Positions 1-64,000 of a stretch of DNA of 64,000 bases are shown here, piece by piece (the stretch's first letter is position 1; the number at the start of each line of letters is the position of its first letter). Below the pieces are notes generated by a model. The model was not told the origin of the DNA. It made no database searches and was given only the letters and a program-made list of their open reading frames with translations. The stretch spans positions 7,371,976 to 7,435,975 of the forward strand of contig CM060121.1 of assembly GCA_030522415.1 (NCBI GenBank), given 5' to 3'. The translations under genes were made by a program, and so were the position numbers. This DNA comes from Channallabes apus. Lineage: Eukaryota > Chordata > Actinopteri > Siluriformes > Clariidae.

Positions 1-1327
1 TCTGTATATCTTCATGGTCCAAATCTTTGCCTTTCATATCTTAACGAATGTGATTCCGTGGACTCGAAGACCCAATTGCAGATCGGTACGCTTGCTGCGC
101 GAGGTCTTTCTTTGCGGCCAAGGCGCTTTGAAGTGTAGAGCCGCAGTAATAAAAAGCCCAGATGGTCGAGCCATGTGGTAACTCAACTGTATCAGTGTAC
201 ACCAAAGCTGCAGAAGACAAATGCGTCTTGTTTCCATCGTTGGTTTATTTTTTCGCAGCCGTATTTCACTTCCCCGAGCCATGGCTCTGCGTTAACGATT
301 AGGAACGGGGTCTTTTTTTTTCTTTGCGGGTTTCTGCAGTGTTTATCCAGAGGCTTGTGTGGGCGCCAAGCTTCGCCCCCTGTTTTTCAACACCTTTGCG
401 CTCTTTCCATCTCTCTTGCCACGACCATCTTTCCTCTCTCTGTTCATAAACCACAGCGTTGTGGGTTTGGACACAATAGCAGTGAGGAGCCATCGTGTGT
501 TTGTTTAACAAGGAGAGGAATGATGTTTCTATTTAACTCACTGTAACTCTTTATTTCATTCACAACAATTCTGCTGGATCTTATTTCTCCTCATGTGAAC
601 CTTTAGTTTGGGGTCTTCTCGGTTTAGAAGGAGAGAAGAAATACAGTAGGAGACTCCAAGCAGCCATGCTAACTCATCCATGAGATGTTTCCTAAATGCT
701 GTTGGCATTGTTTACAGTATGTTTATCCTTCCTACCTAAAGTCATTACTGTAAGAATGATACAAAGGTAAAGAATGAAGATCTTAGCACATATGCTAACC
801 GGTCCTTTATAGGTTTCACTAATCATTAGCATTGCTATATATATCCCCCCCCCCCCTTACCTCAAGTCACTTCAGTATGGTGGAAGAAAAATAAGCAAAC
901 TCCTAGCAGCCATGCTAATTCATCCTCTGTGTCTTTAGTTAAATCATAAATATTTTAGGCATTGTTTTTCTTTACCTCATCTTCAGTTGCTACAGTAGAA
1001 ATGCTAAAAGAATTAAGACATTATAAGCACCCATGCTAAAACTGAACCTCTGTAGTTTTTGCTAGTTGGTAGCATTATTAGCATTTCTTGTGTTTACCTC
1101 ATCTCAATTCAATCCAGTGTGAAAGACACAAGAAATGTAAGTAGAAATGGAAACCTTTCGCAATAGGTTTTGTTGATTGTTAGTGCCTTGAAAAGGGGAG
1201 GGAAATTCTATCTAGTCATCATGTTTTGCTAAATAGTTAGCATTGGTTCCCTTAAGTTAATGCGGCTAAAGCTAATTCAAAGTGTATCTGGCTAAGAAGT
1301 AAATCTTTTTGTTTTTCTTGTCATAAG
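1..1327 (+). other. fat4: fat4 intron (3' part)
   Basis: No exon was found here on the + strand: no open stretch resembles the upstream laminin-G sequence of Fat4. The intron ends in a T-rich tract and an AG at 1326-1327. It contains the degenerate tandem repeat described separately and a C homopolymer at about 846-857. The preceding fat4 exon is presumably upstream of the window. Confidence 0.7.
600..1260 (+). repeat. Degenerate tandem repeat, about 120-190 bp period
   Basis: The phrase 'agcagccatgctaa...catcc', followed by 'tagcatt' and then 'tttacctcatc', recurs with drift near 658, 785, 905, 1025 and 1210. This gives about five poorly conserved units. It lies inside a fat4 intron. Units are too diverged to assign to a known family by eye. 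Confidence 0.55.
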
Positions 1328-1413
1328 GCTGCATCACTCACTGTTGATCTGTGTGGAGAAGAGCAGGAGCCTGGGTACTGCACTGTCAGCAATGTGGCTG
1401 TCCATACTGACTG
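1328..1413 (+). CDS. fat4: fat4 coding exon, laminin-G 1 (sixth from last)
   Basis: This 86-nt exon reads LTVDLCGEEQEPGYCTVSNV and continues VAVHTDW, with the final Trp codon split over the donor (TG at the exon end, G at 1635). It matches the part of the first laminin-G domain of vertebrate Fat4 in which a cysteine-containing loop precedes the DVQPNR strand. It is bounded by AG at 1326-1327 and GT at 1414-1415. Reading starts in phase 0 and ends in phase 2, compatible with the next exon. It is too short to stand out as an ORF and was recognised from protein similarity plus splice phase. Fat4 is a single-pass atypical cadherin that binds Dachsous1 on neighbouring cells and acts in planar polarity and Hippo-linked growth control. 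Only its last six coding exons lie here. Confidence 0.9.
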
Positions 1414-1634
1414 GTGAATACACACTTATATTTACAATATTAGCTGTAAGGAATGCATAATTTAATATATTACTTTTTCTTTCTGGATTCATCGGCCTAA
1501 ATTACCTTCATTTGGAAATCAGCCAAATTGTTTTTCCCTCTTTCTCCATCTCTTTATCTCATTATCTTTGTCATTTATATTTTATTTTTATTATTTTTTT
1601 CTTTTGTTATACTCTCCTTCTTTTATCCCCATAG

Positions 1635-1814
1635 GATTTTGGACGTACAGCCCAACCGTTTGTCAGTCGGTGGTGTTCGGGCGATCGAACCGCTCCTACA
1701 GCGCAAAAACCAGGTGAACACACATGATTTTGTCGGCTGCATTATGGAATTTGCCATCAATGGACGTCCTCTGGAGCCATCGCAGTCTTTAGCATCTCAA
1801 GGCATCTTAGACAG
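1635..1814 (+). CDS. fat4: fat4 coding exon, end of laminin-G 1
   Basis: This 180-nt exon encodes ILDVQPNRLSVGGVRAIEPL, then LLQRKNQVNTHDFVGCIMEF and AINGRPLEPSQSLASQGILD. It is the C-terminal part of laminin-G domain 1, with the conserved late motif (DFVGC.MEF.(I/V)NGRPL) that closes the jelly-roll sandwich. The acceptor is AG at 1633-1634 after a long pyrimidine-rich tract, and the donor GT is at 1815-1816. The first base completes the Trp codon of the preceding exon and the last two bases (AG) form an Arg codon with the A at 3503. Similarity to vertebrate Fat4 is strong and continuous; no break was seen. Confidence 0.96.
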
Positions 1815-3458
1815 GTGCGTTACACACTCAACTATTAACATACAGTAGATAGACTAAATTAATATCACTTAAAAGTATGTTTATTGTCCTGTACTATTGA
1901 ATGGTTTTAATGTTAGTTTTGTAGTGTTTGTCTGTAGAGTTCGTACTCCTGAAGTTGCGATAGTTTGCTTTCCAAGATTAGTCATGCTTGCAAGCAATAC
2001 TGCATTAGCTACAATTTAACTATTGCAAAAAAACATTTTTAGCTTTGTTATGAGATTAGAGATTGAATAAAAATGTATTGAGACTATTGAGCTAACAATA
2101 AATGGCAGTTTTCAGCCAGGGATGAACACTGACTGGCCATTGACTGGATAACACTGGCCAAAGTTGCCATTTCAGAACGGTCAAATTATTGGGCTGCATC
2201 AAGCAAAGAAAACAACTAAGAAGATTTGAAATGTCTGGACTTTGGTTAAGAACCCTTCAGTACCTCATAAAAACCTTAAAGTATAGTGCTGAACTGTCAA
2301 CTATGTGGAAGAAATCATGAATAGAGATCAGTTAAACACTTGGTGAAGTTACATGGTAAAAAATCAACAGGAAACCAGGGCTATGTTTACTAGTCAAAGT
2401 AAGATTGAAAGAAAAATTTCAATATACACAAACAAAGGTGATGAGAACCCACAGGATTGAGACTAAACATCTGTGTAGCCACTTATTAGTATGGCTAATC
2501 AGAAAAAAAGGCTTGCATTTGTTAGAGAGAATCAAGATTGGCTTTTTGAGCAATGGAAAATCATGAGGTCTGATGGGTCCAGATTGGCCCTAGTCCAGAG
2601 CGAAGGCCACGTCAGGGTAAGAAGGGAAGCGCATGAAGCAATGCACTCATCAGACATAGTGACCACTGTACGATTGCTTCATTTGTCTAGGCTGAGTAAT
2701 ATTATGTGGCAACAAAATTAAGTCAGCTGATGACCTGAATACTGAATGACCAGGTTATCACATCTATGGAGTTTTTCTTCCCTGATGGCATGGTGATATT
2801 CCATGACTCAAACTGTAAAAATGTCTTTGGGAACATGAGGAACCGTTTTCACACAAGAAAATGGCTTAAATGAAATCTTAGATTATGCAACCTTTCACTG
2901 TATGCTTTATGTCTCTTCACAGCTGTTGACTGATTCAGTGTCTTAAGTCTTGCTTGAACACCATATATTTGCCTGTAGTTTATTTATAAGAAATGTCCTG
3001 TATGGCAAAGGCTATTGAAGCCTAAAAGAAAACTATAGCTCATCTGTGTATACCGTGAGCTTGGTCGATGGAGAAGAACTCCCAAAACACACAAACTGTT
3101 TCAGACAGGCAGGGACAAGAAAAATGACTGGGTTCACTTACAGTATACCAAGTATGGTTCATATGGAGAGAAAGAGATACAGTAGTATTTTCTGGTGAAA
3201 TAAAAACACTCCTTGGACAGTTTTTGGCTCTACTGTATTCATACACACTCAGCGAACTCTGTGCAGGCAGCTATTAAAGAACCAGTGAACCTCCTGCTGT
3301 CTGATACACTTTTTAGTGGCCAAACGTCTGGTTTTATAAGCTAGAAAAAACTTGCAGCGTCTTTTGCTAATATGCTAATGCAGCTCGGTCTCTTTCCATC
3401 TGTTTTTGTTAGTGGTGGGATCATCTACTCTGCTTCTCTGTCTTCGAAATGTTGTTTT

Positions 3459-3639: not shown

Positions 3640-5190
3640 ATTAATTGGCGTGATCTTGTCAAAGAGGGTATTGATAGAGATTAATGGGACCTGACACCTC
3701 AGAGGGGACAGTTCGGTATAGTCTAATTGAAAACAGTTTTTAATAAAGCAGTTTGAAATAAATTGATGGGGTAAGACAAGTGACATATTGTGGTTTGATA
3801 TTGATTAATAGGGTAAGACAGGCCAAGCAAGGAAAATTTTATAGATTGATGGGGTAAGACAGGTCAAACTAAATGGTTTAATATACTGTAGGTTGATGGA
3901 GTAAGACCAGTCAAACAAGTCAGATTGATAAAAATTGATGGGGTAAGACTGGTCAAACAGGACAGTTTAATATAGATTATGGAGTAAGACTGGTCAAACA
4001 AGGCAGATTAATATTGATTAATAGGTTAAGACAGACCAGAAGGGGGAGACTTGTATAGCTTGATGTGGAAAGACAGGTTAGATAGAGAAGGTTGATATTG
4101 ATAAATGAGTAAGCTGGGTCAGCAGGGTTACCATTTTGTATAGATCAACAGTGCAAGATTGGACATTAAGAACAATTAGGACAGGAAAAACAAAAACAGT
4201 TTGACACTAATTAAAAAGTTCAAAGTGAGCAATAAGGCAGTTTGATACTGTATATAGATTAATGGGGTAATGCAGGTCAAAAGGCAGCATTGATATACTG
4301 ATGTGATGAGGTAGGTCAAAGGAAGCATCTATTCATATAGATAAATGAGGAAGATGGGTCAAAGGGAGGGAGGTCACAGTTAGAGTGGGGCAGCTTTATA
4401 TGACAAAATTAGGGTTTTAGTTGATTTAGAAAAAGTGGGTAAAATTGGTCAGAGGATTAGTTGGGTACTGTAGGACTGTTCAAATGGGGCAAGTTGAGTT
4501 GGAGTAAGTACAGTAGATTAAATTGGTCAGATGGGGCAGCTTGATTTGGATCAACTGGGTAAAATTGGTCAGATGGGGCGGCTTGATTTGGTCGATAGTT
4601 TTTATGAGAATGATGGAAGGAAAAAGCATCAGAGGTGATAATTTAAACAGAGATGACTCAGGTAAGAGGGATGACAGAAGATAAATTGATAAAGCCTGAT
4701 GTGGAAAGGTAGGTCAGGAGGCAGCTTGACAGATCAGTAGTGTAAGAATGGGTAGAAAGTGGCAGATATGTGTGGTTAGAAGGTAGTTTTGATATACTGT
4801 CAGTATTATAACATTGTCTGAAAAGAGCAGATTAATCTATTGTATAAGGATAATGTCAGAGGGTACAATTTGTTTGGAACAGGTGAAATAGGGCAATTAG
4901 ATAGGGGGAAATAGGTTAGAACAGACTGTTTGATTTGGCTCTGTAAGCTAATAAAGCTGAAGATGGGACAGATTGATTAGGTAAGACATGAGAAAAGAGT
5001 AACTCTGATCTACAGTAGTTAGGTGGGGTAAGATGAGCATGTGGGGGCAGTTTAATATAGAATAGATCAATGGGGTACGTCTGGTCAGAGGATGCAGTTT
5101 GAAAGAGGTCAGAGGGGTAAGACCAGGCAGAGGTTGGTTTTATAGAGAGAGATGCCGTAAGAGGGTTCAGGGAGGGCAGCTGGTTATACT
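3640..5190 (+). repeat. Degenerate intronic minisatellite, about 50-60 bp unit
   Basis: The intron between the EGF and laminin-G 2 exons is almost entirely a drifted tandem array. The recurring core is 'gattgatggggtaagac' followed by '(a)ggtcaaa..aggcagtttgata'. Clear cores occur near 3765, 3809, 3850, 3896, 3940, 3975, 4020, 4260 and 5070, and weaker ones in between. Unit length and sequence vary, so the array looks old. The neighbouring exon boundaries are unaffected. Confidence 0.8.
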
Positions 5191-5247
5191 GATGAAGAAA
5201 GTATCTGAAGAACAGTCTAAAATAACTTTTCCTCTTTTCTCTCCTAG

Positions 5248-6445: not shown

Positions 6446-9400
6446 GTTAACCATCTTCATCTTCATATCAGCTTTAGATTATCAAATAAGACAACATTTA
6501 CCTGAGCTGAGCATTATTATTATTATTAGTCAATAATAATGTATATAATCACTGGGACGTATCTGGACTCTAGCTGATATATGCAGGAAATATACAACGT
6601 GAAAGGATCGTTGTCGCTCGACTGGAAGGCAAACTAGCTGCCTGTAAAGTAAAGTATTTTCCAAACAAGGGAAAAATGTCGTGATAGTAAAAGTTAAGAA
6701 TGAGCAGGCTGTCTCAGTTTGACTGAAATTACACTTAGCAGGATCTCAACCAGTTCTTACCGTGACGTAAATCACCATCATGTCATTTGAGAATTTAGCA
6801 GGAGGAAAGGAGTAGAAGGAAGGTGTGAACATGCACTCAATATTTAACCATGGCTATATTATCATCTTATCATCTTCATTACACAAAAATCTGTAACTTC
6901 CGAGATACTGAGATATAATCAGTTACTAGGATTAGATTCGTATAAATAAAATTTCCCTGTTATTTCTTTTTTACTATAATTTTGTTAGTGCTGCTTTCAT
7001 TCCATATTTATATATTTATATTATATTGGTAAGCGATTTAACTGTAAATTACTCTAATTTTAAAGCTTAGTAGTGTTAAAACACTGCTGATTTTAAGTTT
7101 CATTATTGGAGAAGAAAAGGAAAAAAGCATTGTGTAATATCTCTATTAATTGCATTCTTTTGCCTATAGAACGACTTTTGCAAATTTAACACATGCCTTT
7201 CGTTTGTGCTTACATAGTCGTTAAAATGACTTTTAGGCTAATTGCATTGAAACCCTATTTATTTTGCATATTTACAAAGTTGCATATTAATTTAAAGCTT
7301 ATCATATTTAACACAGGTCTCAGAGCTCCCCAAAGTTAGTGGTCAAGCTGAAATGTCCCTCAGATTTTATATATACCTTAAACTCCTTTTGACAGGTTGA
7401 GGTCAGGACTCATCCATGTCTTTACGGACCTTGCTTTGTGCACTGGTGCGCAGTCATGTTGGAACTAGTGTGGGTTTGTTTTTTAGGAGTTGGGCTCAGC
7501 CCCTTACTTCCAGTGAAAGAAACTCTTAATGCTTCAGCATACCAAGACATTTTGGACAATTTCATGCTGGCAATTGCAAGCCAGGCCCAAAATCAGTGTC
7601 TGAACTGCACTTCTGAAAGAATGGTCAAAGATTCCCATAAAAACATCTAAACATGGTGGAAAGCCTTCCCAGAAGAACTGAAGCTGTTGATTGATACATA
7701 GCTGCAAAGGGTGGGCCAACCATATAAGCCACCATATGGCGTAAGAATTGGATGTTACCCAAGTTCATATACTGCACATGTAGTGTAGCGTAGTAGATAA
7801 ACACTCTGTAGGGATTGTAAATATTGTAAGTCAGTAATCAGGGAAAGAAGCATATAAGGGCAGGGAAGTTGGGTCGAGTGAGATCTACAGTATAGGTGAC
7901 TGTAATGCAATTTACAGAACTTACTGTACAGGAGCGGTACTGAGGAGGACAAGTAGAGAATATAGTGTGTGGAAATGTTCAAGATACAGATCAAGACAGA
8001 ACAAGATCAGAGAAGGAAGCTTTTGACATTTATAGGGACGACTGGACTGGAAAATTGGCCTTAAGAGACCTACAATTGACGGTAATGTAACCAATTGGAT
8101 TCCAGCCGCAGTTAAACAACAAGGAAGAAGAAGAAAGAAGAAGACCTATGATTGGGAAAAGGATATAAGGCTGGAATTTTCTCCTTGTGTTTTTGTGTTA
8201 ATGCAGTCTCTAGACCCATCTAACTGTCTAAATGTGAATTTTGCAGAATAGTTTTCTGTTAAGAAACTATAAGAAAGTAATCGTGCTCATGTGAATGGAA
8301 ATAATTATTGTGGGGAATACAATACATGTAAACAGACTGTACTGTACTCCATTTAATAAATGTAGCTAGGAACTAGTTTGTAAAAATATTGAGCCACACC
8401 TACTGTAATTTCTTCGTATTAAATTAAATGATGTAGATTAAATTAAAGAAATGGGAACAAGTGTTTTACTGTGAGAGGCTAAAAACTTCTAAGATTTAGA
8501 AACAATTTCAATTGGTTGTTTATGTATCAATTTCAGCAGCAACCTCATTTCCCCTCCTATTTGTTCGCAACAGCTGAGCATTCAGCATTAGCAGTATTAT
8601 TAAAAAGACAAGATAGTCTGACTCTTTAGAAACAGATATCAAGTCTTATGCACAGTACTGTATATTAGTAAAGAATGAACGCAATTTGACAAGGCATTTG
8701 ACTTGTATCGTCTTCATCTCTCGTCATTCATCAAATAAACCACCTTATGAAATCAGTGGCAGGAGTATTATCAAGCTAGCTTGCTATTAAATTAACATCT
8801 TAGGATATATAGCAGCTTATTCAAGAAATAGTGTTTCACTAAATATTTCAGGTTTATTTAAGAGTTCAGGTTTGAAATAGCAATGCTTTACTGATCACTC
8901 CATATTGAATCCAGGAATGTCTGGAGAGATTTTCTCTCTCTCTCTCTTTTTTTTTTTTTTTTTTTAACAAAGATAACATCTTTGGCCTCATATATTGTGT
9001 TCGAAACCATCTGGATAAAATGGTGATGTGACTAATCAGAATGTGAGCGATCATATTTCCTCTTGATGTTGCTTCACCAACATAAACAGATGTTTATTGA
9101 ATTTAAACCCCTCCAATCCCCCCCAATGTAAATGGAGAGGGTTTGGTTTTGCTTTATTAGAGACAAAAAGGCCAAGTCGGCTTGGCTGAACCTGATCTCT
9201 CCAACCTGCATGTGGGGAAACTTTTAAGTTCCCATATTTCGGATGCCGTTAGTGTATGTTTAAAATTTGTTGCAGCGAGATAAAGAGAGCAAATTTGACC
9301 AGATGTTGTGCATTTTACTGTTAGAGTTATGCACAATGCAAGAAACAGAGGCCGTGCAATAAATAATGGGTTCTTGAGTGAAAATCTATGTTTTTTTTTA

Positions 9401-9682
9401 TCCTCTAATCATACTTATCCTGCTAATGGCAAATGGTAAAATTCTGTTTGCCATCTTCTTTTGCTAATAATAATAATAATGCTAGAATATTGCTCATTAT
9501 AAAGCAATTAAAGCAATGTTATTTATACTATTAATATAATAATTGTATCTGAATCATGTAGTGTTAATTATTGTTCATATTAATTTGCTGATTATCGTTA
9601 CTGTGTAGATAATTATTAGGTGTTTTGTCATTAAAGTGGTACAAGTTTAACAACTAATAATTTCTTCTTTGTCTTGTTTCAG
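6446..9682 (+). other. fat4: fat4 last intron
   Basis: This intron is AT-rich. It holds a Tc1-derived element (7390-7745), a (TC)n/T tract at about 8935-8965 and no exon. The block at about 8990-9330 has mixed composition with no repeat character and could be a conserved regulatory element, but nothing in the sequence alone proves that. Confidence 0.7.
7390..7745 (+). mobile_element. Decayed Tc1-derived element
   Basis: The text 'aggtcaggactc', 'gcactggtgcgcagtcatgt', 'cataccaagacattttgga' and 'ctgcaaagggtgggccaac' belongs to a very common fish Tc1-family repeat. Here it is rearranged, with segments in a non-collinear order and many substitutions. The terminal repeats are lost. The short open frames inside are not genes. 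Related sequence lies at 34125-34450. Confidence 0.75.
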
Positions 9683-11577
9683 GTTTTGATGGCTGCTTTT
9701 CATATGTAAAGTACAATGGCGAGCTCTTGCCGTTCTCTGGTGACCATCGAACTGTCGCCATCTCCATTTCCGGGACGGACGAGGCTGTGAAAATCGGTTG
9801 CCGTGGCCCGAACATGTGTGCTAGTGCCCCCTGCTGGGACGGCATGATGTGCGTCAACCAGTGGTTTAGCTACCAGTGCGTTCCTCCTGGAGACTGTACT
9901 TCCAGTCCCTGTCAAAATGGCGGCAGTTGCATCCCCGCCAACCGTGGTGGCTTTTCCTGTGTATGCGACGAAATGTACACAGGACGAGTGTGTGAAACCC
10001 TGGTGGCATGCCTGGGTGTAACTTGTCCACATGGCATGGTATGCAAAGTTGGAACCAACAGTGGTTTTAGTTGTGTTTCTGACACCAGTAAAGAAGAATT
10101 CATTTTGCCCATTTGGGCAGTTCCAGCGATTGTGGGTGGCTGTGCCACCATTCTCGCTTTGTTGGTGCTTGGCCTAATTTTACACAATCACTGCAAAGGC
10201 GGTAGGAAGACAGCCATACCAAAGGAGGAAAAGAAAGCAAAGAAAAAGAAGAAGAAGAAGAAGAAGGGAAGTGAGAATGTTGCATTTGATGATCCGGATA
10301 ACATCGGGGATGTTGACATGACCGTGCGGAAGCAGCCAGAAGGAAATCCAAAGCCTGATATAATTGAACGTGAGAACCCATACCTGATATACGATGAGAC
10401 AGATGTCCCAGAGAGTGGCGACACGATTCCCAGTGCACCAGAAATTGCAGAGATTGAGCACTATGATATCGACAATGCCAGCAGCATTGCTCCATCTGAT
10501 GCCGACATTGTCCAGCATTACAAGCAGTTCCGGAGCCACACTCCCAAATTCAGCATTCAGATTCAGCGCCATAGTCCTCTGGGTTATGCTCGTCAATCAC
10601 CACTTACATTGGGCGCTGCTAGTTATTCTTACCAACCTTCTTATACTCAAGGACTCCGCCAAACACCGCTAAGCCATGCCCCCTGCCCTACACCAACCCC
10701 TTTGTCCCGCCACAGCCCCGCACATTTTAGTAAACCAGCCTCGTTTTATCGCAGCACACCAACAAGGGAGGTGAATTTGAATCTGGCGAGGCGTGATGGA
10801 AGCCCGCTGGACCTTCATGCAGACAATTGCCAGTCAGCAGCTATCTTTAATTACACAGCATCACGTCTTGGAAGGCGCAGCAAGAGCCCACAAACGATGG
10901 CAGGTCACGGGTCAAGGCCTGCGAGCCGCTTGAAACAGCCAATTGAGCAAATTCCACTGGAGACCGGGCCTCCTATTGGATTATCCATAGAAGAAGTGGA
11001 GCGACTCAACACTCCGCGACCTAGAAATCCCAGCATTTGCAGCGCCGATCACGGGCGCTCATCGTCTGAGGAAGACGCTCGCCGTCCACTTTCTCGAGTG
11101 CGAAATCCTGCAGATGGAATTCCAGCGCCGGATTCGTCTTCCGAGAGTGACTCGCATGACTCCTTCACCTGCTCTGAGATGGAATATGACCGGGAAAAAC
11201 CGGTCAATTATGGTTCTCGAGTTCCAAAACTATCACAAGTTAACGAATCTGATGCTGACGATGAGGATTACGGAGGGGGAAGAATCAAGCAAAGGAGGTA
11301 TTCGAGCCGTAGGGCAGAGGGAGGGGCCAGTGGAGGCCACCCCCCCTTTGGGGAGTATCAGCATCACACACTGCCCCACAAACTGGGGCAAGGATCTGGC
11401 AACTTCAACTGGGACAGCCTACTAAACTGGGGACCAGGATTTAGCCATTATGTTGACGTTTTTAAAGATTTAGCTATGCTTCCAGAAAATTCTAATGCTG
11501 CTAACGACGTTGAAATGAACAGTGGTGATGGTTCAGTTACCATCATTGCCGAGGGAGAGGCAGAGCAATACGTATGA
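9683..11577 (+). CDS. fat4: fat4 terminal coding exon: EGF modules, membrane helix, cytoplasmic tail
   Basis: This 1895-nt exon gives about 631 residues. The order is: end of laminin-G 2 (FDGCFSYVKYNGELLPFSG); a cysteine-rich EGF region (CRGPNMCASAPCWDGMMCVN, then DCTSSPCQNGGSC and CLGVTCPHGMVCK); a hydrophobic helix (about 10111-10185, LPIWAVPAIVGGCATILALL); a basic stop-transfer region with an expanded lysine run (about 10221-10267); and the cytoplasmic tail. The tail carries blocks highly conserved in Fat4: GSENVAFDDPDN, NPYLIYDETDVPE, IEHYDIDNASSIAPSDADIV, QHYKQFRSHTPKFSIQ, SIEEVERLNTPRPRNPSICS, FTCSEMEYDREKP, KLSQVNESDADDED, FNWDSLLNWGPGF, HYVDVFKDLA and the C-terminal GEAEQYV. The stop TGA is at 11575-11577. 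The tail links Fat4 to planar-polarity and Hippo-related signalling. Identity as Fat4 rather than Fat1, 2 or 3 rests on these tail blocks. No TAC(A/T)GTA motif was seen in it. Confidence 0.98.
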
Positions 11578-13160
11578 GATATTCTCTCTTGGACCAATCA
11601 GGACTGAATGGACTAAGGACAGAGAGAAGGCAATCGCTTGCAATAATAAATGTTCTTTTGTTTTTTTTTTTATCAGTTTTTTTTTTGGTACTTGTATTTG
11701 TAAGAAGACGAGCTTAAATGCAGTAAGGCAGAGCGATACATCTGTGATAATTCTCCTGATCCCTGTTAAGTGAGAAAGATTTAAAATAGTCCAAATGAGT
11801 CCATTACTGTTTGTATTTCACTGTTGTCTCTAGTGTTTGAGAATCTGAAATCTCCAATTTCAAAACATCAGCAATGGAGCAACTTGTTCAACAAACCACA
11901 GCAGGAAGTTTCATGATTAATAAGCTTTCACAAAACCATGTCTTTTCTCCAACTTGTTGCAACACTATTGTTGGGCTGGACAATATATTATGTATCGTCT
12001 AATTTAAGCTAGCATTTGAATTTTATTGCAAAAATTACCATCTCTGTTCAGTTACAAATAGCTGATGAGACTCACTGAATTGTGAGTATAATTTCTGCCT
12101 GGTTCCACTGATTTTCTGTGGACGTCAAATAAAAATATCACAGAAACCTTGTTTTTGCACAGGCTCAGACTTTTGGACTGTAGCATTTAATACTCCTTCA
12201 CGGATCGTTTTGACGTCCATAAAATCCGAAAGGTCCTTGATGACCCCGTAGACATTTCGTTTGCGTTCTTCCATGCAGCAGAAAGCCAAGGGAGGATGTG
12301 GCTGTTTTAACAGCATGACCATATGAACTTCATCAAAAATACAGAAATAAAAACCCACAAGCTCTTTTTAATCCAGCTCTCAAAACATGAAGTAGGGTCC
12401 AAAGTCTGAGTGCACTACTGAGAACTGTTCTCACAAACTAAAAAGGTTTGGTGAAACGATATTACTCAATATCTGGTTTGACATTTAAAAACAGTGGACG
12501 TTCTGATAGATTTCCGTTTCACACGCCGATGAGGACAAAGGATCGATCTCAGTTATAATAACTGAGGTTATTATGTAATAAGGATCGACTGACAAATAGT
12601 GATTGATATGTGATGTAACAGAAACAGTTCACGAGGCACTCAGATTATTTTTTTTTTTCTTTTTTTTCATTTTACCAGACTCCTCTGGCCTGCTTCTGGT
12701 GTGTAAGAGGAGTGTTCTGCCAGTGTGTGTAACATGATAATACCTGCTGGTGTCTTGGACGGCCATTTTTTCCTGTCCTGTAGGAACCATCATTTGTGAC
12801 ATTTGACCTAAAGCGAAATCCTCATAAGACTATGAACTTGTGTACATTTTGTATCAATGAAGGAAATTCAATGTTCTCTCTTGCTGATGTTGTTGTTGTG
12901 TGTTTTTTAATGAACTGTTTCTACTTTTTTATTAACTTAAAGTACTTAAGCAGTGTTTTTATGATATTTTTTTCATATGCTGGAAATAATCTTACTTTCA
13001 GGGGAAGTAAGATTGAAGTACTTAATTATTTTTTTTTTTTTTACATTTGTTACTTATGTAACATCAGTATTTTCCACTTTTTTGATAAAACTATAACATA
13101 CTGTATGCTTTATATGTGTAAGAGCCAATAACAGAATAAAAAAAATATTTATTTAAAGTG
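11578..13160 (+). other. fat4: fat4 3' untranslated region (likely extent)
   Basis: AT-rich, non-coding sequence follows the stop codon. Canonical AATAAA hexamers occur at 11645-11650, 12128-12133 and 13135-13140. The last, followed by an A-rich tract, is the best candidate for the main cleavage site and would give a 3'UTR of about 1.6 kb. Earlier sites could give shorter forms. Which is used cannot be told from the sequence. Confidence 0.5.
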
Positions 13161-14025: not shown

Positions 14026-15080
14026 TAGAGGGCCGTTCAGGTCAAATCAGGAGTTTTCACGGAATAACAGAACACAGTTATGAGAGTTAAAAATTCCGTT
14101 TATTTCTCGATGTAATCCTCTGGTACACTAATGTATTTTGATACCATGAAGGTAGAAAATTTTTTGTCAGTCCACCGGATCCATGATCGGACTGCCTGCT
14201 TCATTTTATCATCACTGCTGAAATGCTAGCCTCTCTGGAACTCCTTCAATGGAATAAACAATCAATAAAATTGATGACCAAAGTCATTTTTTTTACAGGA
14301 CAATGCATAACCTCATACTCATATTGCTACCGCGTCGCTTGCACATTATAGAAACTCGGCTGGGAGTTTTTCGCCACATCCCCATACAGTCCTAACCTCA
14401 CTTCAAGCCATTTCCAAATGTTTGAGCTATTAAAGAGTTCCTGGGAGGCCAGCATTTCAGACGTGAAGCAAGCAATCCAATTACTGTATGGCTCCAGTGT
14501 ACTAAGAAAACTTTCTAATTTGATGATATCCAAGCACTAGCTGGGATAAGTGCTTCATGAGGGGCGGTCATAAAATTGTTACTATTGCTAAGAAAAAAAT
14601 TATGTAATGCAATGATGTAATTAATGTAATGTAATGAAAACGAACATTGGTCGTGAGCTTAGTCCTTCTCTACATATCCTCCACCTAAGGCGACACAATT
14701 CTCCAAATGATGGATAAGCTGGTGGAGACCGTCTTTGAAGAAGCCTTTTTTTTGGCTCTTGAGGAAGAGGATGAGTTTACCTCATCATCGTCAAATGTCT
14801 GCCACAAAGTTATTTCTTCAAGTGATGTACGAGGAAGAAGTCATTGGGTGCAAGCTCGGGCGAATGGGGGGGTTTGAGGCAGATTTCGTACCCCTACATA
14901 CAGTAAGTCGCCTGAATGCCTCAAGTTTGGTGGCACGTCGTCATGAAGAAGGCGCACTTAAACTTTTGATTTTGACCCTCTAGTGGCTTTTTTTTTATTT
15001 TATTTTTTTTATGAGCTTCCGCATTTCTGTTTATTTCATATGATTTATGAATTTTGCAACCAGCCCTCGTAGTGTAGGGA
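14026..15080. mobile_element. Rearranged mariner-like element
   Basis: The ends 'gagggccgttcaggtcaa' (14029) and 'gcaaccagccctcgtag' (about 15057-15073) form an imperfect inverted pair of mariner type. Inside, 14340-14460 encodes a degraded piece of transposase C-terminus (ETRLGVFRHIP, then IKEFLGGQHFRRE after stops), the LG(W)...HPPYSPDL...LKEFLGG region of mariner transposases. Other parts run in the opposite orientation, so the copy is internally inverted. It is not functional. Related fragments lie at 20800-21060 and 37240-37570. Confidence 0.65.
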
Positions 15081-15240
15081 TTATATAAAGAAATAAAGGT
15101 AGATTTTATTCTTATTACTGTTTCTTGTTATTCTGCACAATCGAAAATCCTGGTTTGACTTGAACACCCATTTAAAACAATACAGTTCATCTCATCATTT
15201 ACTTTACACGAGACAGATTTTTACATTTCACATGACATAT

Positions 15241-15522
15241 TCGAGTTTGCATGTTCTCCCTGTGCTTGGTGGGTTTCCTCCGGGTACTCCGGTTTCCTCC
15301 CACAGTCCAAAGATATGCAGGTTAGGCTAATTAGTGTTCCTAAATTGCCCGTAGTGTGTGATTGGGTGTGTGAGTGTGTGTATGTGTGTGTGCCCTGCGA
15401 TGGATTGGCACCCTGTCCAGGGTGTACCCCGCCTAGTGCCCGAAGTCTCCTGGGATAGGCTCCAGGTCCCCCGCGACCCTGAACACAGGATTAAGCGGTA
15501 TAGAAAATGAATGAATGAATGA
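15241..15522 (+). mobile_element. tRNA-derived SINE, family A, 5'-truncated
   Basis: This copy starts within the body ('gtttgcatgttctcc') and lacks the tRNA-like head. It ends in (GAAT)n. The 9-bp sequence ATGACATAT lies at 15232-15240 and again at 15523-15531, giving a target-site duplication. 5' truncation with a duplication is what LINE-type reverse transcription produces. Confidence 0.9.
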
Positions 15523-15531
15523 ATGACATAT

Positions 15532-17215: not shown

Positions 17216-17400
17216 TGGCCAGTATTTAGGGTTTTTTTGGTGATTTGGGTGAATCTTGTATCACCAGCTTACTGGTGCATAATTGATAAACAACACCGGT
17301 GTTCATTTTGTTGGCTGCTCGTTGTACTGTATCATCATATCATCATAATTTTTGTATGTGAGTAGCATGCAATCATTTCCGTACACTAGGACGTGGAGTC
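17216..17400 (+). repeat. Inverted repeat arm A
   Basis: This segment ('ggccagtatttagggttttt' to 'ctaggacgtggagtc') reappears in reverse complement at 19001-19205 with small indels. It includes 'aacaccggtgttcatt' and 'agtagcatgcaatcatttcc'. It may be two copies of an unidentified mobile repeat. Confidence 0.85.
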
Positions 17401-19000
17401 GCACATGGGTGACATTATGTGAAAAAATGATGTGAAGTTCAAAATGCGACATGAAAAAGCAAATGCATATACATAAAAATCTAAACAAATAGTTGCACTG
17501 GTGAAAAAGGGTGAAATTATTGTTTTGCATCAAGCAAAAAAGTTTTTTATTTTTATTTTTTTTTATTTTTGGCCATGCAAGGTAAACGAGTCGTGTCAAA
17601 TCATGTTAAAGCCATGAATGAACACCCAGGATTGTCCTATTCAATTAATCATTGTCATTATCTGTCTAATAATGATCATTCTAATCATTCTGTCCGCATG
17701 TAACAATGCTACCAATAATGGTCAGCTAATGGTCGACTTTCCAATAAAAATACCAACTAACAATCCTCTGCAAACAAACAAACATGTGCTGTACGTTAAA
17801 CACTCTACATCCTAATGTACACACTGTCTGGAGTGAAAGAAAATACTCATACGCTTGGTTCGCATGGCTGGAGCATAATTTATTTCCCTCACAGTCGTAA
17901 AATAATTGCAGCTAAACGCTGAACACTTCTTTCCACAACCAGCATGCCACTGGTCTGGGTGCTTTCTGGCTGAAATAGTGTGCATGCCATTGGTGCACTC
18001 AGATCTGCCCGTGTCTGTGTGTGCGTTTATGTGTTAGTGTGTGTGTGAGTGTGTGTGTGTGTGTGTGTTAGTAGTTTAAGAAAGCACATCTGGATCTGAT
18101 CGGGACGGTATGAAGCGCTGTTTCAGCACTCACTGAGACTCTCACTGCTGACTAGAGAGGCCTGGAGTTAACCAGGGAAAAACACTACAGTATGTGTGTG
18201 TGTGTGTGTGTGTTTGTGGAAACGGTCCTTTGTTTGAAAGAATGTAAGTTTTCTAGGAGGAAAATGTGAATACTTGTGCATTAGCCCCAGCTTCTGTATT
18301 GTTCTGCATTTTCTGAATAAGATGAGGTTTGTCGAAACCAGCCAAGTGCACCAGCCAATCATGTCCTGCCATAGAGATACTGGAAACCGCACTGCGTTAT
18401 TGATTCCAAACATCTCTAAAACCAAACACTACCGTATGAAGTAGTGTGTCAAAACATACAGTAATAATATTCACAAATATGCACACAGGCAACGCCCGGC
18501 TTTCAAACTAAATAAGACACGTATGTGAGGTTTGGTTTTTGGTACATGCATCAGCATCACTTGGTCACTCATAAAATGAAGAGCTCATTTGTATACAGTG
18601 ACATCAACAGAACTATAAGGTCAAGTGCACAGATATCTCGGTAAAAACATGGCGATCAGGGTAAAGTCCAAGAAAGGCTCACTTTGACATCTTTTCGTTT
18701 ATTACAGCGGTTACTCGGAGTGATCTCCTGCGTTATCTCACTCATCTCACTGTAGGTTGCTGATAACCAACAGTGATAATGTTTCCTGATAATGTTACAG
18801 TACAATAATGGCTTTTGAGAATCCCAGGAAACAGTAAGCAGGAAAAACACTGACTTATAAGGTGTGTCCAAACTTTTGACTGGCACCGTTTTATTTATTT
18901 ATTTAATTTATTTATTCATTATTATTATTATTCTCGCATCAGCGAGAAGGCCAGGCACTTCTACCACAAACCAGCATAGTGTGAGATGGAAAAGTACAGG
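17401..19000. other. Spacer between inverted repeat arms, no gene seen
   Basis: Contains (GT)n tracts near 18040-18068 and 18192-18212 and AT-rich non-coding sequence. Near 18862 'gtgtccaaacttttgactgg' resembles a Tc1-type terminal repeat. No coding potential was recognised. Confidence 0.55.
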
Positions 19001-19205
19001 GACTCCACGTCCTAGTGTGCGGAAATGATTGCATGCTACTCACATACAAAAATGATGATGATGCTGATTTGACATACAGTACAACGAGCAGCCAACATAA
19101 TGAACACCGGTGTTGTTTATCAATTATGTCCCAGTAAGCTGGTGACAGTATTATGGACATACAAGATTCACCCAAATCACCAAAAAACCCTAAATACTGG
19201 CCATA
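19001..19205 (-). repeat. Inverted repeat arm B
   Basis: Reverse complement of 17216-17400. Relative to arm A it carries a 14-nt extra segment between the 'cttgta' and 'tcaccagc' stretches. Both arms share the TACTGTA next to 'gctcgttg', so that heptamer predates the duplication. Confidence 0.85.
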
Positions 19206-20231: not shown

Positions 20232-20243
20232 CATAACAAAAAT

Positions 20244-20614
20244 TCATTCATTCATTCATTTTCTATACCGCTTAATCCTGTGTTCAGGGTCGCGGGGGAC
20301 CTGGAGCCTATCCCAGGAGACATCGGGCACTAGGCGGGGTACACCCTGGACAGGGTGCCAATCCATCGCAGGGCACACACACACACACACACCCAATCAC
20401 ACACTACAGGCAATTTGGGAATGCCAATTAGACTAACCTGCATATCTTTGGACTGTGGGAGGAAACCGGAGTACCCGGAGGAAACCCACCAAGCACGGGG
20501 AGAACATGCAAACTCCATGCACACAGAGACGGGAATCGAGCCTGGCCGGGGAATCGAACGCAGACCCTGGAGGTGCAAGGCGACAGTGCTAACCACTACA
20601 CCACCGCGCCGCCT
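20244..20614 (-). mobile_element. tRNA-derived SINE, family A, full length
   Basis: In minus orientation it runs from a tRNA-like head (pol III box A 'tggtgtagtgg' and box B 'ggttcgattcc' type) through a shared body to a (GAAT)n tail. A 12-bp target-site duplication CATAACAAAAAT lies at 20232-20243 and 20615-20626. The near-identity to the other copies suggests recent activity. Open frames over it are by-products. Confidence 0.95.
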
Positions 20615-36432: not shown

Positions 36433-37239
36433 AACTAAACATCAACCATATTTATCCCACTAAGCTGCAAATTGATTAAGTCACCTTTTTAGAATTGTTT
36501 TTGGTTCCCAGTCGTCTTGTGGATATCTGAAGCTTCAAATTACAAAACATGTGCATTTGTTCACTTCACACAGTGCTGAAAGCTTCTCTAAATCTTTATG
36601 TATCATCAATTTCTATTTTAAAATACAGATTTTTAAAAAATAAATCTCTCTTTGACCATCTCTCATTCATTCTACCCCTCTAGGTTTAGCAACACAGTGA
36701 GAATGAACAGCATTTGTGGAATTCACTCCATCCTTCCTGCCCCCCTCCAGCCATCCTTCATTCTCCTTTCTTTCTAATAATAGCCGGGATAGTGTAACGG
36801 GCCTTGCCGATAGTGTGGGTGTCACTTCATTCTGGATTTCCTGTATTTGTCCCTGTTGTTTGACACTGGCTGGGATATACTGTATACTGTATAACTCACC
36901 TCAATTTGTTTTTCACACAACACTCAGTTGGGTGATTGTTGATGGTTGTTCACCAGGGTCAGTTTTTCCTCATGTAACACAATACACAAACTCATTCACA
37001 AACATATTCTTACTGCCATTTAAATGCACTTATGGAATGTCAGACAGAATGAACAACAATGCATTCCATTTTCCTTTATTATAGAAGATCTACAGTATAG
37101 TAATTAGTACAGCAAGACAAGCAAAATAAGCAGCATACTAACTATAGGCCAAATCTTTTTTTTTTTTTTTCATAAAATAAATATTTAAAATGCAGTGTAG
37201 CAGCATCAGTAGTAAACATTGTATGTTTTAAAGAATGTT
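36433..37239. other. Intergenic, no gene seen
   Basis: Non-coding. Holds two adjacent TACTGTA heptamers at 36878-36891 and one more near 37092. Confidence 0.5.
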
Positions 37240-37570
37240 TTAAAGAAGGCGATACGTCCATGAAAGTTGAGCCCTCCCGAGGTGCCTCAGAGCCCACTCC
37301 AGTCATACCTTTTCAACAAGATTTTTTGTTCACAACTTTTGGAAGAGACACATCTGTCTATGGAAACTGTACACACAATCATTCAAAAACACTTATTGCA
37401 CATTACAGAAACTGGGCTCGGAGTTATTGCCACATTCCTGGATAGTCCTGACTTCACTCCACGCCCTTTCCATGTGTTTGAGCCACTGAAGGAGTTCCTG
37501 GGAGGCAGGAGGTATACAGTACAGTAGCTTGATGGTATGCAAATGTTAGTGAAATGCTGGGATAAGGGCA
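37240..37570 (+). mobile_element. Mariner-like transposase fragment
   Basis: Plus-strand translation near 37360-37500 reads VHTIIQKHLLHITETGLGVI, then ATFLDSPDFTPRPFHVFEPL and KEFLGGRRYTV. This is the same C-terminal mariner region as at 20800-21060. The SPDFTP part retains an Asp. It is interrupted by a double excision-type footprint at 37515-37526. Confidence 0.75.
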
Positions 37571-41109: not shown

Positions 41110-41665
41110 CTGAAATATGATGCAAGTATATTTTGAGGCCACACATGCTGCGGAGGATAATAAGACAGACAAAAACTTTCTGGAGCCAAGAAACTATTTG
41201 AAAGCCATGCCAGAAGAAGAAAGTCCTTTGTTTCATCTAAACTCAAAAGTAAGCATCACTAAATGCTACAGAACACTTGACTGGAACCAGGTTCTGTGGT
41301 CAGAAGATACTTTTTTCCCCCAGTAACAAACACTCAAGGTATGTTTGGCATAAAAAGAGTATTATTCTGGAGAAAAGAATCTAATATACATTATTAAGTG
41401 TGGCGGTGGCAGACCTGTGATGTTGTAGAGATATTTTTGTTCCAAACGCCATGGAAATGTTTTTAAACATACATGCAGTTCCAGCATAAAAATGATCCAA
41501 AACATACAGTACAACCAAAGAAACAGATTTTGGACTAGTCCATCCTGGTGCACTGGAGCTCCTCCACCACAAGAGAAGGTTTAGGACTCAGGAGGATGTA
41601 AAGTCTGTATTGAAGGGTGTCTTAGATTCCTCTCTAATCTTATCAAGCATTATATGAGAAGAATG
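41110..41665 (+). mobile_element. Decayed Tc1-like transposase copy
   Basis: Translation near 41117-41326 reads YFEATHAAEDNKTDKNFLEP, then YLKAMPEEESPLFHLN and DWNQVLWSEDTF. This matches the SDE(S/T).F region of a Tc1-type transposase with order changed at the catalytic Asp-Glu (SEDT). A later segment around 41400 recalls GGG..M(L/V)WG.F, then PKH..... Several frameshifts; inactive. A TACAGTA lies at about 41508. Confidence 0.75.
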
Positions 41666-43238: not shown

Positions 43239-43499
43239 TACAGTACAGTATTACAAGCAGAGGTGGAAAGTAACGAATTACATTTACTCGCGTTACTGTA
43301 ATTGAGTAGTTTTTTTGTGTATTTCTACTTTTTAAAGTAGTTTTAAAAATCTGTAATTTTACTTTTATTTAAGTACGTTTTGTTTGAAGTATTGTAATTC
43401 GCTACATTTGAAATCATATTCGCTACTGAGTAAAAAATAAATGAATGAAAATGATAAAATAATAAAAATATTATGCTTTGTATAAATGCTCCGTTGCGC

Positions 43500-46883: not shown

Positions 46884-47229
46884 GGGTGGCACAGTGGTGT
46901 AGTGGTTAGCACTGTGGCCTTGCACCTCCAGGGTCCGGGTTTGATTCCCGGCCAGGCTCGATTCCCGTCTCTGTGTGCATGGAGTTTGCATGTTCTCCCC
47001 GTGCTTGGTGGGTTTCCTCCGGGTACTCCGGTTTCCTCCCACAGTCCAAAGACATGCAGATTAGGCTAATTGGCGTTCCTAAATTGACCATAGTGTGTGT
47101 GTGCTCTGCGATAGATTGGCACACTGTCCAGGGTGTTCCCTGCCTTGTGCCCTGAGTCTCCTGGGATAGGCTCCAGGTCCCCATGACCTTAAATACAGGA
47201 TAAAGCAGTATAAAAGATGAATGAATGAA
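46884..47229 (+). mobile_element. tRNA-derived SINE, family A, second subfamily
   Basis: Complete copy with a perfect 13-bp duplication TAAAAAAAGCCCA at 46871-46883 and 47230-47242. It shares subfamily differences with 31712-32049. Confidence 0.95.
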
Positions 47230-47242
47230 TAAAAAAAGCCCA

Positions 47243-57747: not shown

Positions 57748-58304
57748 TATATATAAAAGTTTGGGGTCACTTTCTAGCTCCATGATGGTTCCTGATTTTT
57801 ATTTCTTTCTACATTGTAAAGTTTTGCTGAAGGTGTCCAAAAGATGCATTAATCTCCTTTGAACAGTTGATATTGAGATGTTTCTGCTACTTCTGCTCTG
57901 TAAAGACTTCATAACGCCTCTAATCTGAGGTGCTGTTAATTGGTCATTTTTCAGGCTGATAATTCTAAATGAACTTCTCGTCTGCAGCAGAGGTAGGTTT
58001 TGGTCTCGTCCTCCTGGGACGGCCTTCATGAGAGCCAGTTTCATTATGGTGCTGGACGGATTTTGCAAATGCACTTGACAATACTGTTCTTGCAGGAACT
58101 ATTACAGAAAGGCCGACCTCTGTGTCTTAAAATAACAACTAACTGTAGTTTTTGTTGTTGTTACGTAATTACAGTACCTAATTCCATATGTGTTATTTTA
58201 TAGATTTGAAATCCCCAGTATTGTTGTAGAATGTAGAAAATAAATCACTAAACAAAAACAAAGAAATTTGCAAGTGACCCCAAACTTTTGAACGGTAGTG
58301 TATA
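57748..58304 (-). mobile_element. Tc1-like transposon relic with inverted termini
   Basis: The right end reads 'gtgaccccaaacttttgaac' then 'ggtagtgta' (58273-58302). The left end has the matching 'aaaagtttggggtcac' (57756-57771), but its outermost part is replaced by TA repeats. Minus-strand translation at 57799-58074 gives IISLKNDQLTAPQIRGVMKS and SRNISISTVQRRL, the N-terminal paired-like helix-turn-helix of a Tc1 transposase. The catalytic domain is missing. A SINE was later inserted at its right tip. Confidence 0.88.
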
Positions 58305-58686
58305 TTCATTCATTCATTCATTTTCTATACCGCTTAATCCTGTGTTCAGGGTCGCGGGGGACCTGGAGCCTATCCCAGGAGACTTCGGGCACTAGGCGGG
58401 GTACACCCTGGACAGGGTGCCAATCCATCGCAGGGCACACACACATACACACACACACACACACCCAATCACACACTACGGGCAATTTGGGAACGCCAAT
58501 TAGCCTAACCTGCATATCTTTGGACTGTGGGAGGAAACCGGAGTACCCGGAGGAAACCCACCAAGCACGGGGAGAACATGCAAACTCCATGCACACAGAG
58601 ACGGGAATCGAGCCTGGCCGGGGAATCGAACCCAGACCCTGGAGGTGCAAGGCGACAGTGCTAACCACTACACCACCGTGCCGCCC
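58305..58686 (-). mobile_element. tRNA-derived SINE, family A, full length
   Basis: Complete minus-orientation copy with a perfect 10-bp duplication GTAGTGTATA at 58295-58304 and 58687-58696. The duplicated bases are the terminus of the Tc1 relic, so the SINE is the younger insertion. Confidence 0.96.
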
Positions 58687-61795: not shown

Positions 61796-62320
61796 TTTAT
61801 TAGCCTCTTTATTAGGCACACCTTACTAGTTGGACCTACTTTTAAACTATTAACTGCATTAACAGTATGAACTTAACAGAAAGCTGTAAAAATTCCTTTT
61901 TTTGGCGTCACACAGTAGCTGCAGATTTTCCCGGCTGCACATCCATGAAGCAAATCTCCCTTTTTACCACATTCCACAGGTTCTATATTTGATTAAGGGT
62001 GCCAATGAGATACCATTACCATTACCAACATGCCATTACACCAACTAACCCAATATAAACTATTGATACTAGGCATTTTGACCCTACTGTACCATTTGAA
62101 TGTTGGAGCAGAAATCAAAACTCATCAGACCAGTCAACATTTTCTTTTAATTTTCTATTGTTTAATTATGGTGAGCCCATGTAAAAGTCACATTTAAAGC
62201 CAATTACTGTAAATCACCATTGGTGCCTATTCTGATGCTCATATTGAACTACAGCAGGTTGTCTTGACCATGTATATATGCCTGTATGCATTAATTTGCT
62301 GTTTGGCTGATTAGACATAT
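61796..62320 (+). mobile_element. Tc1-derived non-autonomous element, family G, decayed
   Basis: Begins near 'ctctttattaggcacacctt'. The inner blocks 'actcatcagaccagtcaaca', 'attctgatgctcatattgaa', 'gttgtcttgaccatgtatat' and 'gctgtttggctgattagaca' match the order of a very common fish Tc1-type repeat. Coding capacity is lost. Confidence 0.7.
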
Positions 62321-63574
62321 AATAGTGAAGATGGTTAACTAGAGCTGGAAGCTTCTCTGTGCCAGAATAAAAATGGTTTATTTGAGAGCGCTCATTGGAT
62401 TGACCAGCACAATGGAAAAGTCCAAGGAGCTCAGTCCAGATCTGAGAAAGAGGATGACAGACGGAAAGTCTTTTTTGGGCTAATTCTAAAAAAATTACAG
62501 ATTACAAGGTCGGTTCAAACTATTCTATACATATATGTACTGTACAAGTTATTGGGAGATGGATTCACTTTGCCAAAGTTTGGAAGAAAACCCAAATTGT
62601 CACCCTTAGCTACTGTATGAGGAAATTAGTTCAGACGGTCAGGAAAAATTCAGCAAATCAACCAAATTCACCAAAGCACAGCCCTGCCATGAACTACAGT
62701 ACTGTATAAGCTTCTGGAACACAAGTGACACATTATTGCTAAATCAAACCTAATATGCAGTAATTAATGTGGGTATTATGAATAGGACTTTTCATGCCAT
62801 ATATTGGCATTATACATTTTCTATCCCTGACCTGGAGTACGTGCATAACCCAACTCTGAATCTGAGTAACTTTCCCTATATGAAAAAAAAAAAAAAAAAT
62901 TCTCACTTTCGCTCTCACTGCAATTCCTTTGTGCTAATGTGTCAAATGGCAAATTATGCAAGCACTTATCACCATCACTTCTTCCATACACTTTATGTAT
63001 TCTTATGTCCTTTATGTTTTTTATTAGTCCTTAAAACTGAACCCAGGATTTGGCACTACTGTCCTCTTCTAATTAGCATTGGTTCACTGCATGGCTTTCC
63101 CTTTTATTTCCCTTAATCGCCATTCCAGAGTAATTGCTTCAGGATGCTGATGCAGGGAAAAAGAAGCACAGACATCCATAAAGAGCGGAGAACGTCAGTG
63201 ATGTGATTCCTGTTCTATTCTTAGTTTCCCCTCAAGGACTCACTGACCTCTGCAAAACATGAAAGAAAGCACCAGATGAAGATGTAATTAAATGCTTCCT
63301 CATGTTTGATGTGTTAAAGTTGTCGTAAGGATAAAGAGACTTTGTTATACAGGTGGACAGGAACTAAGTGTTTGGGAGAAATTGATGATTATGCAGATGG
63401 AGTATGCAATTTGAGACACAACTACTACATGTCTTACCAATTTAAGACCAGTTTATTATTTTAATGTACAGTATCCACTTACACCAGCTGAATGTACAGT
63501 ATGCAATAATGTAACCTAATCTAAATATATAAATAGCCTCATGCAACTAAAAATGTGAAATACAGATTGTACAG
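62321..63574. other. Intergenic, no gene seen
   Basis: Non-coding; a nested TACAGTACTGTA at 62695-62706; an A-run near 62883-62899. The open frame at 62769-63116 has no domain character. Confidence 0.5.
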
Positions 63575-63675
63575 CAGTGGTCAGTACCATCACCTCGCAC
63601 CCCCTGCATTGGAGGTTCCAATGTTTTGCATGTTCTCCCAGTATTTCCTGGGTTTCGTCCAGGTATCCTGAAACA
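63575..63675 (+). mobile_element. Old fragment of SINE family A (5' part)
   Basis: 'cagtggtcagtaccatcacc', 'tgttttgcatgttctcccag' and 'cctgggtttcgtccaggtat' follow the head and body order with heavy divergence. Confidence 0.65.
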
Positions 63676-64000
63676 ATATAAAAGGCCACCATTCCTAAAC
63701 TGAGAAATGGTCCGCTGTCAACATTATCAGCACCATCAGTCTCCTAAAAATGTCTATAAGCATACAGAATTCATCAGACACTAAACTATGCTAATACGGT
63801 AAGAAAACAGGTGAGAGGGTCTTAATAATGTTTTCAATAATATTGTTTGCAATAATATTAAGCATAGTACAATGGTCAACTAGTGTGTACTCTTTTTTTC
63901 AGTGTTTATTGGCAGTTCGTAAACCATTCAGGTGCATACTGCCACCTGCTGTATTGGAGTGTTTAAATATGTGGGTACAAAACACCAGTATTAATTGGAC
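63676..64000. other. Intergenic, window end
   Basis: Contains 'catactgccacctgctgtat' near 63938, a phrase common in a short fish repeat. No gene. Confidence 0.4.

Follow-up and report, generated by a model that had tools for sequence, protein, structure and literature searches.

The Tc1-type transposon Sleeping Beauty (SB) duplicates a TA dinucleotide at insertion and is cut out 3 nt inside its ends, after which end joining leaves CAG or CTG at the site. The sequence TACAGTA or TACTGTA has been described as the SB excision footprint (PMC4378557), also written TACWGTA (PMC10138897), and approximately 100–200 candidate SB footprints per tumor were reported from three mouse leukemias (PMC4378557). 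The target preference of both SB and the zebrafish element ZB is described as an AT-rich palindrome; in frogs and mammals, that of SB is given as ATATATAT. Tc1/mariner elements are reported to make up 5.41% of the zebrafish genome, in which ZB exhibits an SB-like target preference and footprints of 0–3 bp (PMC7913693). A comparison of two rice genomes describes excisions of DNA transposons that mostly delete flanking sequence or add filler, with eight of 94 being perfect (PMC4423477). Surviving copies are the usual measure of transposon activity; where a cut-and-paste element seldom increases in number, its history is more truly recorded in scars. The footprints themselves are known chemistry. 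Among the best-matching open-access papers, none was found to report a fish with natural Tc1 scars in a dense field, nor any natural field as dense as that described here.

The stretch of DNA analyzed here (the window, 64 kb) contains 67 copies of TACAGTA and 72 of TACTGTA, a total of 139 heptamers with a mean spacing of approximately one per 460 bp. A first-pass annotation had counted 135–140 by hand, a range that includes the program count, and the motif is present at all seven of the coordinates that it quoted. Its chance expectation of about 14 is close to the 13.0 obtained under independence, although the A+T content on which it was based, near 64%, is in fact 61.5%. A second-order Markov model predicts 14.3 heptamers, making the excess approximately tenfold, and in 60 simulations under a third-order model the count averaged 18.7 and reached at most 32, so that the observed number lies far outside their range. 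These Markov expectations are raised by the scars themselves, which were included in the window sequence used for training. The share owed to chance is approximately 10–19 of the 139 heptamers, which leaves an estimated 120–129 true scars.

The excess is specific to TACWGTA among the 64 TANNNTA words and the 64 palindromic classes, and it is present in all eight blocks of 8 kb (7.0- to 13.6-fold). The runner-up by frequency is TATTTTA (26 seen, 18 expected) and, by ratio among words with at least nine sites, TAGGCTA (nine seen, 2.0 expected), part of whose excess comes from a dispersed repeat. It had been suggested at the outset that equal enrichment of other TANNNTA heptamers would undermine the footprint reading; none of the 64 words comes near TACWGTA in the window. 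Other palindromes and other TANNNTA words were considered and set aside, being without like enrichment. TAGSCTA was seen 12 times where 4.2 were expected, some of its sites (e.g., 15323, 23100, and 25079) belonging to the dispersed repeat. When the interval between the TAs was varied from 1 to 8 bases (TA-Nk-TA), the top words, up to five for each length, are simple repeats, bits of the same scars, or the dispersed repeat, together with a few small excesses such as TAGCTA (21 seen, 10.5 expected).

The longest scar-free stretch (8663..13098, +) has no heptamer where TA content predicts 7.5 (P = 0.0006, for a stretch selected for being the largest gap). The last exon of fat4 (9661–11577) lies inside it, and avoidance of this exon is not significant (no scars seen, 1.9 expected, P = 0.15). 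The nine copies of the dispersed repeat contain no scars versus 4.3 expected, a comparison chosen after the fact.

Most of the 139 heptamers very probably mark excisions of cut-and-paste transposons of Tc1 type, with ends CAG...CTG. Such an element would duplicate a TA on insertion; transposase would then cut 3 nt inside each element end, and end joining would close the gap with CAG or CTG between the TAs, its central mismatch resolved in either direction, for a net gain of 5 bp in each cycle of insertion and excision. Excision would have occurred in the germline, the scars accumulating neutrally, and the mobile family would have few resident copies. The SB-type Tc1 footprint reading, first proposed from the letters of the window, is supported by the word excess, the flanks, the 5-bp insertions, and the nested pairs.

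When rejoined at one TA, the heptamer flanks lean toward the palindrome AYA/TRT, an SB-like target preference, with frequencies of 0.55 for A at −3, 0.42 for A at −1, 0.67 for A or G at +2, and 0.43 for T at +3. They match AYA-TRT better than do the other TA sites (n = 4573, p = 1.6e-9) and the other TANNNTA sites (n = 376, p = 4.3e-9). T at the right-hand +1 is not raised at heptamers (0.32 versus 0.33 at other TA sites), nor are complete six-of-six matches commoner there (1/139 versus 109/4573 other TA sites); the palindromic preference of SB appears in the flanks as a statistical lean, not at every position.

Three pairs of heptamers in the window overlap at 5-bp spacing: TACAGTACAGTA at 37515..37526 (+), which reads as one scar set into the TA of another, the same sequence at 43239..43250 (+), and TACAGTACTGTA at 62695..62706 (+). 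Simulation of random landing on TAs predicts 3.49 such pairs, versus 0.085 by the Markov model, and the TAs of scars have themselves been targets. Two further motifs abut in TACTGTATACTGTA (36878..36891, +).

The presence of a 5-bp insertion was assessed at 12 of the 139 sites, with ambiguous outcomes at 713, 4246, and 29500. TACAGTA at 58170..58176 (+) is an exact 5-bp insertion relative to an inverted paralog at approximately 19800–20011, in an alignment that has a second 5-base gap upstream, not at a motif. TACTGTA at 14482..14488 (+) is likewise a 5-bp insertion relative to an inverted paralog at approximately 14137–14246, which has CA at the place of the inferred target TA. A third scar, TACTGTA at 3884..3890 (+), lies in a degenerate tandem array; the unit containing it exceeds that at 3766–3840 by 5 bp and a second one, at 3931–4000, by 6 bp. 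The fourth, TACTGTA at 62611..62617 (+), shifts the frame by 5 bp in a Tc1 transposase relic, as judged from three-frame reading and protein comparison. The original claim that each scar added 5 bp thus stands at 58170, 14482, and 62611, and at 3884 against one of the two units; it fails at 41505 and 62538.

In the self-alignment of the window, scars lie at two of six 5-bp gaps versus none of 31 four- or six-bp gaps, a contrast with a nominal Fisher p of 0.02 among rows that are not all independent. A spanning paralog is present in the window for only nine of the 139 sites, six of which favor the collapsed form; controls also favor it (11/36 and 16/114, some beside the same scars). Sites 17325, 19075, and 60758 align better uncollapsed, and the last of these adjoins a CA run. 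The motifs at 17325 and 19075 (17325..19081, no strand assigned) lie at corresponding positions in the two arms of an inverted repeat, and therefore either predate the arms or belong to the element.

A tblastn search of the window with 120 Tc1 proteins yielded 89 rows, which were grouped into four transposase relics, all degenerate. The N-terminal relic at 62376..62676 (+; best match P0131) contains the motifs at 62538 and 62611. At 62538 the reading frame continues as is, and removal of 5 bp would break it; this motif does not fit a single 5-bp insertion and is not a clean case. The relic at 41189..41532 (+) includes the TACAGTA at 41505, which reads as native coding sequence and is therefore probably no scar. 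Two weak relics, at 2356..2676 (best E = 1.3e-4) and 7366..7590 (best E = 3.4e-4), neither assigned a strand, are without the motif. In an ungapped test of the window, CAG stood at both ends in none of 68 inverted pairs and at a single end in four, which lie in the dispersed repeat or in ATATATGC arrays. The source element is not seen in the window, since there are no CAG-ended pairs and only four degenerate relics. That scars far outnumber resident elements, as the first-pass annotation had asserted, is borne out within the window as far as tested, its whole-genome wording being an extrapolation from these 64 kb.

Three bases are all that a scar retains of its element, and scars cannot tell which CAG-ended family made them. 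It is possible, though unlikely, that the source was not SB-like Tc1 elements but pogo-type (Passer-like) elements, or CAG-ended MITEs moved by transposase from elsewhere. TA is likewise the target of pogo elements, which frequently start with CAG; this favors the explanation, as does a window without any Tc1 element having good ends. Passer, a pogo element of fish, is described as leaving footprints of 0–4 bp (PMC9976928), but the published accounts of SB-like elements describe both the lean toward AYA-TRT and the CAG/CTG product of 3 bp that dominates here.

Selection on TACWGTA as a functional or structural motif (a binding site, or a replication or recombination signal) is very improbable. 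In its favor, TACWGTA is short and palindromic, is evenly divided between the strands (67:72), and has few decayed neighbors, and the copies at 41505 and 62538, within Tc1 relics, do not act as 5-bp insertions. No clear decay series was found in the one-mismatch words, with 87 transitions seen versus 71–76 expected and 172 transversions versus 135–142. Dating by decayed neighbors failed, because the excess (265 seen versus 200 expected with scars masked, or 255 unmasked) depends on background and transitions are not ahead of transversions. Against a functional motif stand the 5-bp insertions at TA, the copy that breaks a reading frame, nested pairs about as frequent as random landing on TAs predicts, flanks that resemble targets on either side, and presence in every block.

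Still less probable is an origin within dispersed repeats, as element ends or as a word internal to some repeat family, which would account for the paired motifs at 17325 and 19075 and for the CAG directly after some sites (13981, 16937, 20801, and 60239). We rejected a repeat family as the source because the 12+12-base flanks (24 bases) are distinct at all 139 sites, and few sites have a spanning paralog in the window. An assembly, library, or chance artifact is hardly credible, for although chance would supply its 10–19 heptamers, the excess exceeds every simulation, and we know of no common library enzyme that adds CAGTA at TA.

Beyond Tc1 excision as the source of most heptamers in the window, we think it rather likely that the whole of this vertebrate genome bears natural Tc1 scars approximately every 500 bp (about two per kilobase, or 1% of the DNA), mostly young and far exceeding the resident elements. 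If true, this density would make a single genome sufficient for measuring excision rate, target choice, and timing; it would account for a class of 5-bp insertions and mean that an almost invisible family is able to shape a vertebrate genome. Cut-and-paste traffic could then be read from its scars as from a ledger, and a +5-bp mutational process missed by element counts would come to light.

The scars of the window resemble the SB and ZB footprints described in cells and mice (PMC4378557, PMC7913693, PMC10138897) in their TA target, their AT-rich palindromic flanks and, for SB, the word TACWGTA, but those footprints were made by introduced transposase, whereas the scars described here look natural and are dense. 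They share TA duplications with the Tc1/mariner elements of zebrafish (PMC7913693); there, resident copies were counted, whereas in the window scars far outnumber residents. As in the rice comparison (PMC4423477), natural excision is read from sequence, but the window, unlike rice as described there, is dominated by one stereotyped 5-bp product that is readable from a single genome.

The window contains 139 copies of TACWGTA (67 TACAGTA and 72 TACTGTA), which bears out the dense field of heptamers described in the first-pass annotation; all seven motif coordinates that it quoted are correct, and its A+T content of near 64% should read 61.5%. Expectations range from 13.0 under independence at that composition, through 14.3 under a second-order Markov model, to 18.7, the mean of 60 third-order Markov simulations (maximum 32), and 10–19 of the 139 sites are expected to be chance occurrences. 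The excess holds up as peculiar to this motif among the 64 TANNNTA words, the runner-up, TATTTTA, reaching only 26 against 18 expected (TAGGCTA, 9 against 2.0). Across the 64 palindromic classes of form xyzWz'y'x', TACWGTA is enriched 9.7-fold and the next class with at least 10 sites 2.9-fold. The excess is present in all eight 8-kb blocks, and the 12+12 flanking bases differ between all 139 sites. Together, the null models, the word comparison, the block spread and the distinct flanks indicate a motif field that is real, specific and dispersed, and not the product of a single repeat.

The field had been attributed to excision of Sleeping Beauty (SB)-type Tc1 transposons, which leave TA-CAG-TA or TA-CTG-TA, a net gain of 5 bp at a TA. 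This interpretation is supported, with the element group widened: the motifs are very probably footprints of CAG-ended cut-and-paste elements of Tc1 or a related group. An origin in pogo-type or MITE sources is unlikely; the word in the window is identical to the canonical SB footprint as given in PMC4378557 and PMC10138897, and for Passer, a fish pogo element, PMC9976928 gives footprints of 0–4 bp. The window has 68 TA-flanked inverted pairs of up to 6 kb (gap-free matches at 17 or more of 24 bases); CAG starts four of them at one end and not one at both ends. Within these 64 kb the scars thus outnumber resident elements, as had been claimed (139 motifs versus 0/68 such pairs). Such an imbalance would be expected of an element that moves often and seldom gains copies, because neutral scars should then accumulate as the product of copy number and per-generation excision rate.

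If the words are footprints, the adjoining bases would be those of the original target. The SB target consensus is AYA...TRT. Unsymmetrised, the left flank of the 139 sites has A at −3 in 55% and at −1 in 42%, and the right flank has A or G at +2 in 67% and T at +3 in 43%; right-hand T at +1 is not elevated (32%; other TA sites, 33%). Scored as matches out of 6 to AYA...TRT, taken as the SB consensus, motif sites average 2.99; the mean is 2.37 for the other TA sites (n = 4573, p 1.6e-9) and 2.26 for the other TANNNTA sites (n = 376, p 4.3e-9). At least five matches are reached at 10.8%, 6.3% and 2.7% of these sites, respectively, and the full 6 at 1/139, 109/4573 and 0/376. Were the motif a mere word, this two-sided lean would have no reason to exist. 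SB prefers ATATATAT as target (PMC3271037), and the zebrafish element ZB an SB-like AT-rich palindrome (PMC7913693).

Footprints were also sought as 5-bp insertions relative to paralogous sequence. Self-alignment of the window gave 153 local alignments, every pair counted from both sides. Two of six five-base gaps lie exactly at scars (3884 and 58170), versus none of 31 four- or six-base gaps (nominal Fisher p 0.02, the rows not all being independent). Direct reading shows that the motif at 58170 brings 5 extra bp relative to its paralogue at 19800–20011, in an alignment with a second five-base gap upstream, away from any motif. The motif at 14482 likewise brings 5 extra bp relative to its paralogue at 14137–14246. 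A long degenerate tandem array at 3740–5200, with ~42-bp GATTGATGGGGTAAGACAGGTCAAAC-like units and several scars inside, serves as a natural test: at 3884 the motif adds 5 bp relative to unit 3766–3840 and 6 bp relative to unit 3931–4000. Nine of the 139 sites have a spanning paralogue, and the form collapsed to a single TA is favoured at six of these, versus 11/36 other TANNNTA and 16/114 plain TA sites, a comparison weaker than the direct readings, some controls adjoining the same scars. It is not favoured at 17325 and 19075, a pair common to two arms of one inverted repeat, or at 60758, which adjoins a CA run.

Every scar supplies two new TAs. Three overlapping pairs at 5-bp spacing were observed; 300 simulations in which 129 scars landed on randomly chosen TAs, with the window closed, gave a mean of 3.49, and a third-order Markov model expects 0.085. 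Repeated landing on TAs predicts such nesting; a fixed motif would not.

A tblastn search with 120 Tc1 transposases gave 89 matches; those outside a dispersed repeat, matched by P0169 alone, group into four places: 41189–41532, 62376–62611, and two weak, very degenerate matches without an internal motif (2356–2676 and 7366–7590). In three-frame reading, the frame of the relic at 62376–62611 shifts at scar 62611 by the 5 bp, and closing this and the fragment's other motifs turns two shorter matches to P0131, another of the query proteins, into one stretch (residues 11–96, 54 bits). At 62538, in the same relic, the frame continues uncut and leaving out 5 bp would break it, which counts against the footprint interpretation. 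The TACAGTA at 41505, in the relic at 41189–41532, reads better uncollapsed and is probably native coding sequence. One of three relic motifs thus agrees with a footprint and two disagree.

P0169 is a hypothetical protein with Tc1 domains from the catfish Hemibagrus guttatus; the repeat's translation matches part of it (up to 73% over 62 residues), so its gene model seems to include the repeat. The match is a hint, short of a demonstration, that the window comes from a catfish. The nine copies (15145–15534, 20242–20613, 22901–23303, 24874–25290, 30491–30660, 31709–32057, 35701–36090, 46884–47235 and 58304–58685) lie in both orientations, several more than 90% alike, and hold no TACWGTA versus 4.3 expected (P 0.014, the test chosen afterwards). 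One-mismatch neighbours of the motif number 265, against 200 or 255 expected depending on background, with transitions (87 versus 71–76) not ahead of transversions (172 versus 135–142). These counts, low or without excess, suggest that the scars may be mostly young, a reading that the scar-free repeat pulls against.

Two large inverted repeats, 22939–25242 (a pair of dispersed-repeat copies in opposite orientation) and 17239–19194, have arms 92–98% complementary and 1.6–2.1 kb apart; the latter, with TACTGTA in both arms, resembles an element bounded by long inverted termini. Palindromic ATATATGC-type units form arrays at 25995–26238 and 29426–29534. By eye, the frame at 21248–21673 (+), in a 1.7-kb scar-free stretch (20801–22455), resembles part of a LINE-type reverse transcriptase. 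Protocadherin fat4 has its final coding exon in the stop-to-stop frame 9661–11577 (+). A common carp protein (79% identity) ranks first among 117 relatives; full-length Fat4 proteins were not candidates because the search considers similar-length proteins only. The DNA is that of a teleost. Frame 1501–1848 resembles, by eye, an earlier laminin-G exon of fat4.

Of other footprints, those of ZB measure 0–3 bp (PMC7913693), and those of rice transposons are varied, 8/94 being perfect (PMC4423477). Among the matches listed in the literature searched, none was a natural field of such density. From this one 64-kb window, we strongly expect the field to extend over the whole genome. The mouse genome is 2.7 Gb in size. 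At that assumed size, the more than 300,000 TACAGTA/TACTGTA words that PMC4378557 gives for it amount to ~7 per 64 kb, versus 139 in the Channallabes apus window.
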